From Fretibacter rubidus (GTDB lineage: Bacteria > Pseudomonadota > Alphaproteobacteria > Caulobacterales > Maricaulaceae): a DNA stretch of 64,000 bases. A program made the position numbers and the translations under genes. Every line of letters starts with the position of its first letter. Positions within the stretch are counted from its first letter, which is position 1. The stretch covers positions 930,001 to 994,000 of the forward strand of contig NZ_CP163423.1 of the NCBI RefSeq assembly GCF_041429785.1. The letters are read 5' to 3'. The notes under the pieces are model-generated. The model was not told where the DNA came from. It was given only the letters and a program-made list of their open reading frames with translations, and did no database searches. This document shows, piece after piece, positions 60,003 through 64,000 of the stretch.

Positions 60003-60076
60003 GGACCTATAGCTCAACTGGATAGAGCAGCCGCCTTCTAAGCGGCAGGTTGCAGGTTCGAGTCCTGCTGGGTCTG
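60003..60076 (+). tRNA. tRNA-Arg (anticodon TCT)
   Basis: 74-nt tRNA, 5'-GGACCTATAGCTCAACTGGA, anticodon stem GCCGC/GCGGC with loop CTTCTAA, anticodon TCT, reading AGA/AGG. The T-arm is GGTTCGAGTCC. CCA is not encoded: the sequence after the discriminator reads GGTC. The other three tRNAs here do encode CCA. Confidence 0.93.
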
Positions 60077-60449
60077 GGTCTTTTTACATTCCCGGTCAGT
60101 CGCTACGCTCCTTCCTCGCCTCTTGTCATCAAAAAACCGCGAGAGCGCAGCGAGGGCGGTAGGTTTTTTGAACCCGGAAAAGAGACACGCCATGTCTGCG
60201 GTCTGGATAGAGGTCCATTAGGGGGGCGCCTCCTGAAACATTCCCGGTTAGTCGCTACGCTCCTTCCTCGCCTCATAAGACATTCCCGGTCAGTCGCTAC
60301 GCTCCTTCCTCGCCTCTTGATGCATTCTCAGTCAGTCGCGATGCTTCCCCTCATTGCAATTAACCTTGGATTCACCACAGGTTATAACAGCTGCAGATTT
60401 CAAAGATATTTTAACAAAGCTCCCGTACTTTGACCCTTTAAAGTGTGGG
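60077..60449. other. Gene-free region between tRNA-Arg and the DUF3034 gene
   Basis: About 370 bp filled mainly by the 42-bp repeats and an inverted repeat. The last 90 bp (60355-60449) precede the DUF3034 start and may hold its promoter; none is clear. Confidence 0.6.
60087..60350. repeat. Short repeat family, three copies at exactly 42-bp spacing plus one upstream copy
   Basis: CATTCCCGGTCAGTCGCTAC followed by GCTCCTTCCTCGCCTC begins at 60087, 60239 and 60281, with a degraded fourth copy at 60323. The last three starts are exactly 42 bp apart. Between copies 1 and 2 lies an inverted repeat (AAAAAACCGC ... GGTTTTTTGAAC). If transcribed it would be non-coding; its translation in one frame shows a 14-residue period that follows from the repeat. 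Confidence 0.8.
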
Positions 60450-61331
60450 ATGGATGATACGGTTTTGAGAGTTATTGCACTTATATCTATTACGGTGATG
60501 GGTTTGTCATCCTGTGCTGCTTTTGATGCGGCTGATAGCGGGCGTTTGCTTGCGACAGGCGGGGTTTCGCAAGTCGAAGGCGCGGGCGGTGCGGGATTAG
60601 CGCCTTGGGCTTTGATTACTGGCTATGGGACCGAAGGGTCATATGGGGCTAACGCGTTCTACACACGTGCAGACCTTCCAGATTTCACCCTGGAGTCAAT
60701 CGGCGCATCCACTGGGATAAGCAACCGGGTCGAATTTTCTTATGCTAAGCAAAAATTTGATACGGGCGATACGGGCCCCGCTCTGGGTCTGCGCCGTGGA
60801 TATAGCTTTGAGCAAGACATCATTGGAGCCAAGGTCCGTGTTGTCGGTGACGCCGTCTATGATCAAGACCGCTGGACGCCGCAAATTTCGGTCGGGGCGC
60901 AATATAAAAAAGCATCTGATCCTGCTTTGCTTGGTGCATTAGGCGCAAAGGATGATGACGGACTCGATGTTTATGTGTCTGCGACCAAGCTGTTACTTGA
61001 TAAAAACTTACTACTGAGCGCGACCTTGCGCGGGACAAAGGCCAATCAGATGGGGTTATTGGGCTTTGGCGGGGATCAGAATGACGATTACGCCGTCCAG
61101 TTTGAAGGGTCGGCTGCCTATATGGTATCGCGTAATGTTGTGCTTGGGGCAGATTACCGCACAAAGCCCGATAATCTTGGGTTTGCCAAAGAACAAGACG
61201 CAAAGGCGGCCTATATCGCTTATTTCCCCAACAAAAATCTGTCCCTAACTGCGGCCTATGTCGATGTCGGAGAGGTCGCTTTGCAGGGTAAGCAAAGCGG
61301 TGTCTACGGCTCAATTCAAGTGGGCTTCTAA
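60450..61331 (+). CDS. DUF3034 family outer-membrane/secreted protein
   Basis: Protein of 293 residues. The N-terminal hydrophobic segment ends near a lipobox-like GLSSC. The mature part alternates beta strands, such as TGISNRVEFSYAKQKFDTG and LGLRRGYSFEQDIIGAKVRVVGDAVY. It ends in Phe (GSIQVGF), as beta-barrel proteins often do. This fits the DUF3034 family of predicted outer-membrane proteins with no assigned function. It is the first of four co-directional genes; the next starts 2 bp after it. The start at 60450 is the ATG nearest the signal peptide. Confidence 0.85.
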   Translation: MDDTVLRVIALISITVMGLSSCAAFDAADSGRLLATGGVSQVEGAGGAGLAPWALITGYGTEGSYGANAFYTRADLPDFTLESIGASTGISNRVEFSYAKQKFDTGDTGPALGLRRGYSFEQDIIGAKVRVVGDAVYDQDRWTPQISVGAQYKKASDPALLGALGAKDDDGLDVYVSATKLLLDKNLLLSATLRGTKANQMGLLGFGGDQNDDYAVQFEGSAAYMVSRNVVLGADYRTKPDNLGFAKEQDAKAAYIAYFPNKNLSLTAAYVDVGEVALQGKQSGVYGSIQVGF

Positions 61332-61332
61332 A

Positions 61333-61791
61333 ATGAAATATGGTCTTAAATCGACGGTTAAATTTGTGGTTCTTATGACCACTGTTGCGGTGATAAGCGG
61401 GTGCCAGACAATGTCGCCAACCGCGTCGTCGTCAACGCTTTATGACATGCTTGGCGGCAATCAAGGTGTTACAAAAATCGTTCAAGGCACTTTGGATTAC
61501 ACGCTATCTGATTCGCGTATCGCCCATACCTTTGATAATTCTAATGTGAAACGGGTCGAGACCCTGTTGATCGAGCAAATTTGCGATTTGACAGATGGGC
61601 CCTGTGAATACTCAGGTCAAACCATGGAACGCTCTCACCGCGGATTGAACCTTAATTCGATGCATTTTAATGCGCTGGTCGAAAATATGCAAAAAGCAAT
61701 GCGGGATAATAATGTGCCGTTTCGAACTCAAAATCAGCTTCTGGCAATCCTAGCGCCGATGCATGATGATGTTGTGGGACGGTCGCGTTAG
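61333..61791 (+). CDS. Lipoprotein-anchored group 1 truncated haemoglobin
   Basis: Protein of 152 residues. A signal peptide with a lipobox (AVISGC, Cys24) is followed by a group 1 truncated globin fold. Proximal haem His is His102 (ERSHRGLN), and Phe67 matches the conserved CD1 Phe. Aligned without gaps to the recalled M. tuberculosis HbN sequence, B10 Tyr is replaced by Leu54 and E11 Gln by Leu79, so the distal pocket looks apolar. Cys84 and Cys91 (ICDLTDGPCEY) are positioned for a disulfide. Periplasmic, membrane-tethered, so it is probably not a cytosolic NO dioxygenase. No ribosome site is clear, suggesting coupling to the upstream gene. Confidence 0.92.
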   Translation: MKYGLKSTVKFVVLMTTVAVISGCQTMSPTASSSTLYDMLGGNQGVTKIVQGTLDYTLSDSRIAHTFDNSNVKRVETLLIEQICDLTDGPCEYSGQTMERSHRGLNLNSMHFNALVENMQKAMRDNNVPFRTQNQLLAILAPMHDDVVGRSR

Positions 61792-61796
61792 GCCCC

Positions 61797-63683
61797 ATGA
61801 TCGGCAATATTTTCAAAGTTCTGATCTCAGTAAAAGCCAAATTGTTTTTTGGCTTTCTCGCGATGGCTATGATTATTTTGGGCTTGGGCGGCTACGCCTA
61901 TGTGTCGACCAGTAATGCTGGGGCTGTAGTGGAGGATACATTTGACCGTCCTCTAATGGCGATTAATTTTGCGCGCTCTGCGGGGCAAGTGTTTAGTCAG
62001 CTTGAGATTGACGTTATCGAACAGTTGCAAACGGGTGCCGAGCAGCAAACCATTGACCCTGCGTCTATTACGCCGCTGCTGTCACGGTTTAAGGCTGATC
62101 TAAAGGTCAGCCAAGACCGTTCTATCGCACCCAAAGCGGTGCCGTTTTTCAAAGTTATTGAGACAGAGCTCGCCCAATGGGAACAGATTATGCTGCCCGC
62201 AGGTAGCACTGTGAGTGCTGCATCAATCACGAAAGCGCAAACCCATGCTGACATAATAGAGCAGCAACTAGACATTATTGTGGAGTTACAAACGGGCCAA
62301 AGCTTCCTCGCCCGCGAAGCGGCCATTGCGCGTATGGACGAGATTAAAAAGTACAACCTTTGGGCGGGTATAGCGGCTTTGACCCTTACTTTATTACTTT
62401 CTGCGTGGATTTCTGTGACGATTATTGCGCCGTTAAAAGCGGCTGCGGCTGCGGCGCGTAAGATTTCTGCGGGCGATTTCAATGTTGATATTCCACCAGG
62501 GGGTGATGACGAAACGGGTGTCTTACTCAAAACAATGTCATCCATGCAGCGCAATATTCGTGACCGTATGGGCCAAGAACAAAACTTACGGGCTTTGGCT
62601 CAACACCGTTTATCTGATTCCGTGACAAACTCACGTGACGCGATTTTGCTGACCGATACAGGCGGTGTCATCATTGTGTCCAACCCCCAAATTGGTCAGA
62701 TGTTTCCCGCGCTTGCTGACTTTGATCTTATCCAACGGCCCTTTAGCAACTATTTTGATGAAACCGGCGCACCGCTGAATGAGCCATGCCAGTTTAACAG
62801 TGAGCGCCGTGAAATTAAGTTCAATGACGGTCGTTGGGCCCGCGTGTCAGCGTCCAAGACACAAGAAGGCGGACGATTATTCATCTGGAGCGACATAACA
62901 GAAGCCAAAATCCGGTCGCAAAACTTACTAGAAGCCAAAGAAGCTGCTGAAGCTGCTGATAAGGCCAAAACATTATTTCTAGCCGCGATGAGCCACGAAT
63001 TACGGACACCTCTTAACGCCGTGATTGGGTTTTCTGATATTATCAAAAGCCATTATGACCAAGAAGGAAAGCATCCTGATCATGCTGAAATGGCGGGCTT
63101 GATTTCCCAAAGCGGCGCACATCTTCTGAATATTGTAAAAGACGTGCTTAGCGTTGCCGATGGGAATGCGGCGGATAATTTAAATATGGATTTGAAGCCT
63201 GTTGAAATGGCGGATGTTGTCAATTTCTGCATGAAAACAATCGCCAGCGAGGCTGAAAAAAATAATGTGCAATTGCTATGGAAAGCCCCAGTTCAGCCTA
63301 TTCCTGTTTATGGGGACGAATTACGGTTGCAGCAGCTTTTACTGAATCTTCTATCGAATGCGATAAAATATAACCGTGACAATGGCCGCGTTCGGGTGGC
63401 CCTTACCACAAACGATAAGAATGCTGTGTGTTTAGATGTCATCGACAGCGGTATTGGCATCGACAAAGCTGATTTAGACCGCATCATGGAACCGTTTGTT
63501 CAGGTCGATAGTGGTTTCACGCGCAAATATGACGGCGTGGGATTGGGGCTGTCTATCGTTAAACAAATTCTAACGCCGCATAAGGGTCGAATTTTTATTC
63601 GATCAAAAGTTGGACACGGCACAGTCGTTCGCATTGTTTTGCCGGCTTTAATGCAATCTCAACGTCAACAGAGTAACCCTTGA
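61797..63683 (+). CDS. Sensor histidine kinase with HAMP and PAS domains
   Basis: Inner-membrane kinase of 628 residues. TM1 about 15-36, periplasmic sensor about 37-186, TM2 about 188-211, HAMP about 212-265, PAS-like about 275-370. HisKA follows with the phospho-His at 400 (MSHELRTPLN), then the HATPase domain: N box LLNLLSNAIKYN, G1 DVIDSGIGID, F box and G2 GVGLGLSIV. The C-terminus ends shortly after, with no receiver domain. No response-regulator gene is in view. It is located between a globin lipoprotein and a cupredoxin. Confidence 0.95.
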   Translation: MIGNIFKVLISVKAKLFFGFLAMAMIILGLGGYAYVSTSNAGAVVEDTFDRPLMAINFARSAGQVFSQLEIDVIEQLQTGAEQQTIDPASITPLLSRFKADLKVSQDRSIAPKAVPFFKVIETELAQWEQIMLPAGSTVSAASITKAQTHADIIEQQLDIIVELQTGQSFLAREAAIARMDEIKKYNLWAGIAALTLTLLLSAWISVTIIAPLKAAAAAARKISAGDFNVDIPPGGDDETGVLLKTMSSMQRNIRDRMGQEQNLRALAQHRLSDSVTNSRDAILLTDTGGVIIVSNPQIGQMFPALADFDLIQRPFSNYFDETGAPLNEPCQFNSERREIKFNDGRWARVSASKTQEGGRLFIWSDITEAKIRSQNLLEAKEAAEAADKAKTLFLAAMSHELRTPLNAVIGFSDIIKSHYDQEGKHPDHAEMAGLISQSGAHLLNIVKDVLSVADGNAADNLNMDLKPVEMADVVNFCMKTIASEAEKNNVQLLWKAPVQPIPVYGDELRLQQLLLNLLSNAIKYNRDNGRVRVALTTNDKNAVCLDVIDSGIGIDKADLDRIMEPFVQVDSGFTRKYDGVGLGLSIVKQILTPHKGRIFIRSKVGHGTVVRIVLPALMQSQRQQSNP

Positions 63684-63686
63684 GCC

Positions 63687-64000
63687 ATGACACACACCGC
63701 AAAGAAAAAGACATCTCTATCAATTTGGCCAAAGGCGCTGTTAGTGGCAGCAATTTTCTATCCAATTGGCGTTTTAGCGCAGTCAAAAACTGAGCATGTT
63801 ATTTCCCAAAAAAACCGAACCTATGCACCCGGCAAGATTGATATTAAAACGGGCGAAAGTTTGAAAATTGTCAATGATGATATTTTTCTGCATCACGCTT
63901 TTATCGACTCAGAGGCACTTGAATTTGATTCAGGGTCTATGGACGAGGGCGAACAGGCTGTTGTGACGTTTGACACGCCAGGCATATATAATGTGCAATG
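63687..64000 (+). CDS. Cupredoxin-domain secreted protein, 3'-truncated by the window edge
   Basis: The visible 104 residues begin with a signal peptide (AIFYPIGVLAQ). A plastocyanin-like beta sandwich follows (YAPGKIDIKTGESLKIVNDDIFLHHAFID), which includes the first copper-ligand His region. VTFDTPGIYNV leads toward the C-terminal ligand loop, which lies beyond the window, so copper binding cannot be confirmed. It starts 3 bp after the kinase stop, in the same operon. This gene often accompanies DUF3034, truncated haemoglobin and sensor genes. Confidence 0.8.
   Translation, partial: MTHTAKKKTSLSIWPKALLVAAIFYPIGVLAQSKTEHVISQKNRTYAPGKIDIKTGESLKIVNDDIFLHHAFIDSEALEFDSGSMDEGEQAVVTFDTPGIYNVQ

Follow-up and report, generated by a model that had tools for sequence, protein, structure and literature searches.

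At the 3′ end of the analysed window, a stretch of 64,000 nucleotides covering positions 930001–994000 of the single-contig 3.45 Mb genome of Fretibacter rubidus, four genes form a cluster that seems to be a cell-envelope system for sensing redox state or gases, of a kind not described before. We read it as a conserved signalling system made of two cassettes, in which a predicted outer-membrane barrel and an exported globin would act through a cupredoxin on an inner-membrane transducer and finally on c-di-GMP, and we assign this reading a probability of about 45 %.

All four genes lie on the forward strand. The first (60450–61331) encodes a DUF3034 protein predicted to be a 12-stranded outer-membrane β-barrel, the second (61333–61791) an exported lipoprotein-type group-1 truncated haemoglobin with a C-x6-C pair, the third (61797–63683) an orphan membrane histidine kinase and the fourth (63687–64043) a short, secreted cupredoxin that bears a type-1 copper site. 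The last 43 bp of the cupredoxin gene lie past the window edge at 64000, and the whole gene was read at L002 7688–8044. The initial annotation had described four co-directional genes spaced by 1–5 bp, which the open reading frames bear out with gaps of 1 bp between DUF3034 and globin, 5 bp between globin and kinase and 3 bp between kinase and cupredoxin. Its naming of the four proteins agrees with the Pfam matches, namely PF11231 for DUF3034 (342 bits against a cut-off of 25, positions 1–255 of 255 and thus full-length), PF01152 for the globin (50 bits), HAMP, HisKA and HATPase_c for the kinase and PF00127/PF13473 (Copper-bind/Cupredoxin_1) for the cupredoxin. The description of a HAMP/PAS kinase holds for HAMP, but the PAS domain is weak, as the window kinase has no Pfam PAS match and its homologues give a sub-threshold match to PAS_7. 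Among named relatives, the locus is closest to L013, which stems from a Hellea MAG. A scan for promoters and terminators yielded nothing informative.

The set is conserved far beyond this genome, although DUF3034 itself is patchily distributed, occurring in 11 of 289 genomes of the class, 12 of 137 of the family and 39 of 398 of the phylum. Up to about 17 kb were taken around each DUF3034 gene, and family members were assigned by iterated profile search; the counts refer to 66 non-redundant DUF3034 loci across Pseudomonadota, while the tree comprises 64 loci and excludes L118, a broken or partial DUF3034 copy. This is a second copy in genome G490 and carries an in-frame TAG. The globin gene lies directly downstream of DUF3034 on the same strand in 63 of the 66 loci. 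In their vicinity, 52 encode a type-1 copper cupredoxin and 47 a membrane signalling protein, which was counted as a kinase in 9 and as a dCache_3-HAMP-GGDEF-EAL protein in 38 of the 64 tree loci. As 14 of the 66 loci have no detected cupredoxin nearby and about a quarter have no transducer, the globin-DUF3034 pair can exist alone; some loci have a long cupredoxin but lack a transducer in the neighbourhood, and others lack both. Searched for irrespective of DUF3034, a DNA pattern of the Cys-type globin was found in 19 of 289 class and 40 of 398 phylum genomes, and DUF3034 is also present in 9 of these 19 and 35 of these 40 (hypergeometric p~1e-10 and ~2e-40, respectively, with relatedness ignored). 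Cys-type globins are found without DUF3034 too, and at L223–L237 related exported globins of this type stand alone, with neither DUF3034 nor a cupredoxin nearby.

The gene order varies among these loci. Outside the alphaproteobacteria, the majority of loci follow the order cupredoxin, GGDEF-EAL, DUF3034, globin. Alphaproteobacterial loci show the window type of DUF3034, globin, kinase, cupredoxin, or have the cupredoxin and then GGDEF-EAL after DUF3034 and globin, or carry cupredoxin and EAL as a divergent pair. Four loci (L087, L088, L094 and L100) encode a further EAL protein on the upstream side of the cupredoxin, which is hence flanked by two c-di-GMP enzymes.

Behind this variation stand two cassettes, DUF3034 with the globin (cassette 1) and the cupredoxin with the transducer (cassette 2), a division that rests on a coordinated swap without crossed pairs, a kinase-cupredoxin fusion and an unlinked pair in genome G289. 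Among the 64 tree loci, a kinase goes together with a short cupredoxin in 9 and a GGDEF-EAL protein with a long cupredoxin in 37, and crossed pairs number zero. Placing the kinase/EAL label on the DUF3034 tree needs two changes, and L025, which has an EAL protein and a long cupredoxin, is placed inside the kinase group, so that the exchange seems to have involved the cupredoxin together with the transducer. At L019 (4826–6955), in one genome only, kinase and cupredoxin are a single open frame of 709 aa with a third hydrophobic segment between the two parts, which would bring the cupredoxin to the periplasm; the search for further fusions in the family of this genome came upon no other DUF3034 genome among 5. 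In G289 (L260 5776–8027) the kinase-cupredoxin pair is unlinked from the DUF3034-globin pair and both persist. A catalase-peroxidase gene lies two genes downstream of the former pair in L260.

These results bear directly on the initial annotation, which had proposed a single extracytoplasmic unit for redox or gas signalling and named scattered homologues as one observation that would speak against it. The homologues are not scattered, the adjacency being conserved across the 66 DUF3034 loci, and together with the co-occurrence and the kinase-cupredoxin fusion this supports the proposed unit well. The kinase, however, is dispensable for the system, its place being taken by a c-di-GMP enzyme in most relatives. 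Globin and cupredoxin had both been placed in front of the kinase; it is the cupredoxin that is tied to the transducer, while the partner of the globin is the DUF3034 barrel. The exchange of a kinase for a c-di-GMP enzyme represents a natural experiment in rewiring a signalling input to a new output.

DUF3034, a family without assigned function in Pfam, gains a testable role from the cluster, as do exported truncated haemoglobins. By sequence it has no relatives of solved structure, and its structure model comprises 12 strands at a mean pLDDT of 67 and matches the FapF, KdgM and OmpG barrels in Foldseek. The C-terminal residue is Phe in 54 of the 66 homologues, and the protein is predicted to be an outer-membrane β-barrel. 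The likeness to KdgM and other specific porins with 12 strands would also suit a system for solute or haem uptake, with DUF3034 as the specific porin, the globin as a carrier of haem or another ligand and the sensor controlling expression. We hold this to be very unlikely, since small barrels in general give fold matches of this kind and the model reaches a pLDDT of 67, and since neither a TonB receptor nor an ABC transporter nor a haem oxygenase was recognised as a recurring neighbour.

The globin belongs to the group-1 truncated haemoglobins according to profile matches to solved trHb1 structures and a fold match with a TM score (target) of up to 0.88. It shares the 2/2 globin fold and the proximal histidine with trHbN and the Tetrahymena trHb, but differs from them in being an exported lipoprotein with an invariant C-x6-C pair and in its distal pocket. 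The proximal F8 His, the CD1 Phe and both cysteines are invariant in 64 of 64 globins, while positions B10, E7 and E11, mapped via alignments to 3aq5/3aq7, are apolar in nearly all of them; the polar B10 Tyr/E11 Gln pair typical of the NO dioxygenase trHbN is absent. An apolar distal pocket offers no hydrogen bonds to stabilise bound O2 and generally favours NO or CO. With its apolar pocket, the globin would be less suited to storing O2 than to NO or redox chemistry.

In the cupredoxins, the type-1 copper ligands His, Cys, His and Met are invariant in 53 of 53 sequences, with the motif CxIHPKM in the short proteins of the kinase loci and CNIHDxM in most long proteins of the EAL loci. Judging from these conserved ligands, the cupredoxin presumably carries copper, as the globin presumably carries haem. 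The invariant copper site and the cupredoxin-kinase fusion could also be accommodated by a system for copper sensing and handling, in which the copper-loaded cupredoxin would be the signal to the transducer and barrel and globin would serve metal homeostasis. Such a system leaves the near-obligate haem globin partner unexplained, however, and copper efflux or chaperone genes were not recognised as recurring neighbours, so we regard it as quite unlikely.

Globin and cupredoxin are both redox proteins with fully conserved ligands, and among the solved structures most closely related to the short cupredoxins are amicyanin-type electron carriers and cupredoxin domains from copper nitrite reductases. 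The two might therefore form a redox pair in a periplasmic detoxification or electron-transfer unit, for example an NO dioxygenase or reductase or a peroxidase, in which the cupredoxin would carry the electrons and the transducer would do no more than control or respond to the stress; NO is indeed removed by truncated haemoglobin N (PMC3493545). We consider this unlikely, as the protein with which the cupredoxin co-varies and is fused is the transducer and not the globin. Moreover, the globin has no recurrent reductase partner beside it and misses the distal Tyr/Gln pair of that dioxygenase.

The kinase of the two-cassette system is arranged as transmembrane segment, periplasmic helical sensor of ~160 residues, second transmembrane segment, HAMP, weak PAS, HisKA and HATPase_c. 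Its sensor is conserved only within the kinase-type loci and gives a weak 4HB_MCP match alone in Pfam; of the 137 family genomes it occurs in exactly 7, each of them a carrier of DUF3034. A sensor common to the kinase and the GGDEF-EAL protein was considered and rejected, as the best BLAST matches between them are centred on HAMP and Pfam assigns dCache_3 to the latter versus the weak 4HB_MCP to the former. With unrelated sensors, the two transducer types may read different things. At L069 (6879–10827) two tandem kinase copies precede one cupredoxin.

A response regulator had been expected beyond the window, but the genes 3′ of the cupredoxin lie on the opposite strand and none encodes one. 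As no adjacent response regulator was recognised at the window locus or at the nine kinase-type loci, we class the kinase as an orphan. The 3.45 Mb genome holds 24 HisKA and 34 receiver matches, and the nearest receiver domains found lie about 26 kb off, within other two-component loci. We compared seven DHp residues that, from general knowledge of histidine kinase-response regulator specificity, we take to dock the regulator. The window kinase matches L122, called PleC-like, at 7 of 7 and L124, called DivJ-like, at 6 of 7, both names resting on domain layout and NCBIfam similarity, while the other compared kinases of the genome match at 5 or fewer. Since this docking motif is common in alphaproteobacteria, the match is a lead rather than proof. 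It suggests that the kinase output may run to DivK/PleD and hence to c-di-GMP too, PleD being a diguanylate cyclase. In this genome PleD, which scores 530 bits at a cut-off of 474, is encoded together with a DivK-like protein. If so, kinase and enzyme variants would both act via c-di-GMP. For comparison, specificity between kinases and regulators is treated in PMC4426382. With the PleC/DivJ kinases acting on DivK (PMC4211667) the window kinase shares the docking residues, but it has another sensor region, and its NCBIfam matches are all sub-threshold, those to the DivJ and PdhS models falling far below the cut-offs.

Taken as a pathway, the two cassettes may work as follows. Cassette 1 would handle a small redox-active ligand at the outer membrane, for which nitric oxide or the redox state of the periplasm would be the likeliest candidates; the choice of ligand is one that sequence data cannot make. 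Cassette 2 would read that state, in that the cupredoxin, once altered through electron transfer or ligation, would dock on the periplasmic helical sensor of the kinase or signal to it. The transducer would then set the c-di-GMP output, the orphan kinase of the window type by phosphorylating DivK/PleD and the dCache_3-HAMP-GGDEF-EAL enzyme of most relatives by acting directly on c-di-GMP. Bacteria may thus use a blue-copper protein to read an extracytoplasmic haem or redox signal. More doubtful is the general form of this proposal, a widespread and so far undescribed periplasmic haem-copper module of Pseudomonadota in which an NO or redox signal passes from the cassette of barrel and globin through a dedicated cupredoxin to a transducer exchanged wholesale between kinase and GGDEF-EAL protein, both converging on c-di-GMP.

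Several known systems show likeness to parts of this scheme. In YfiBNR and HmsCDE, an outer-membrane component, a small periplasmic protein and an inner-membrane c-di-GMP protein form a relay, and a redox input has been reported for HmsC (PMC4887326, PMC5550408). The cluster may work in a similar manner. YfiBNR, however, has no haem globin, cupredoxin or DUF3034, and in the present system the transducer can be a histidine kinase. Membership in that family was rejected, the Pfam content being DUF3034, Bac_globin, histidine kinase and cupredoxin instead of YfiR-like and YfiB (OmpA-like lipoprotein). NspS-MbaA (PMC8967002) likewise has a membrane GGDEF-EAL enzyme governed by a periplasmic ligand-binding protein, but NspS binds polyamines, whereas the accessory proteins described here would bind haem and copper and are joined by an outer-membrane barrel. 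In globin-coupled sensors (PMC10882959, PMC12805357) a haem globin also feeds a c-di-GMP or kinase output, yet it does so as a domain of the very protein that gives the output, and here the globin is separate, exported and truncated. Among open-licence papers we found no description of the cluster, a single mention of DUF3034 in each of only two papers, whose titles and abstracts do not contain the cluster, and nothing relevant that pairs a cupredoxin with an EAL protein or a truncated haemoglobin. All component families except DUF3034 are known, and their combination with a coordinated transducer swap appears undescribed.

Upstream of the cluster, a tRNA-Arg gene (60003–60076) is directly followed by an array of direct repeats of 31–40 nt (CATTCCCGGTYAGTCGCTACGCTCCTTCCTC), a sequence with no occurrence elsewhere in the genome, which extends in three to four copies over positions 60079–60345 of the window towards DUF3034.
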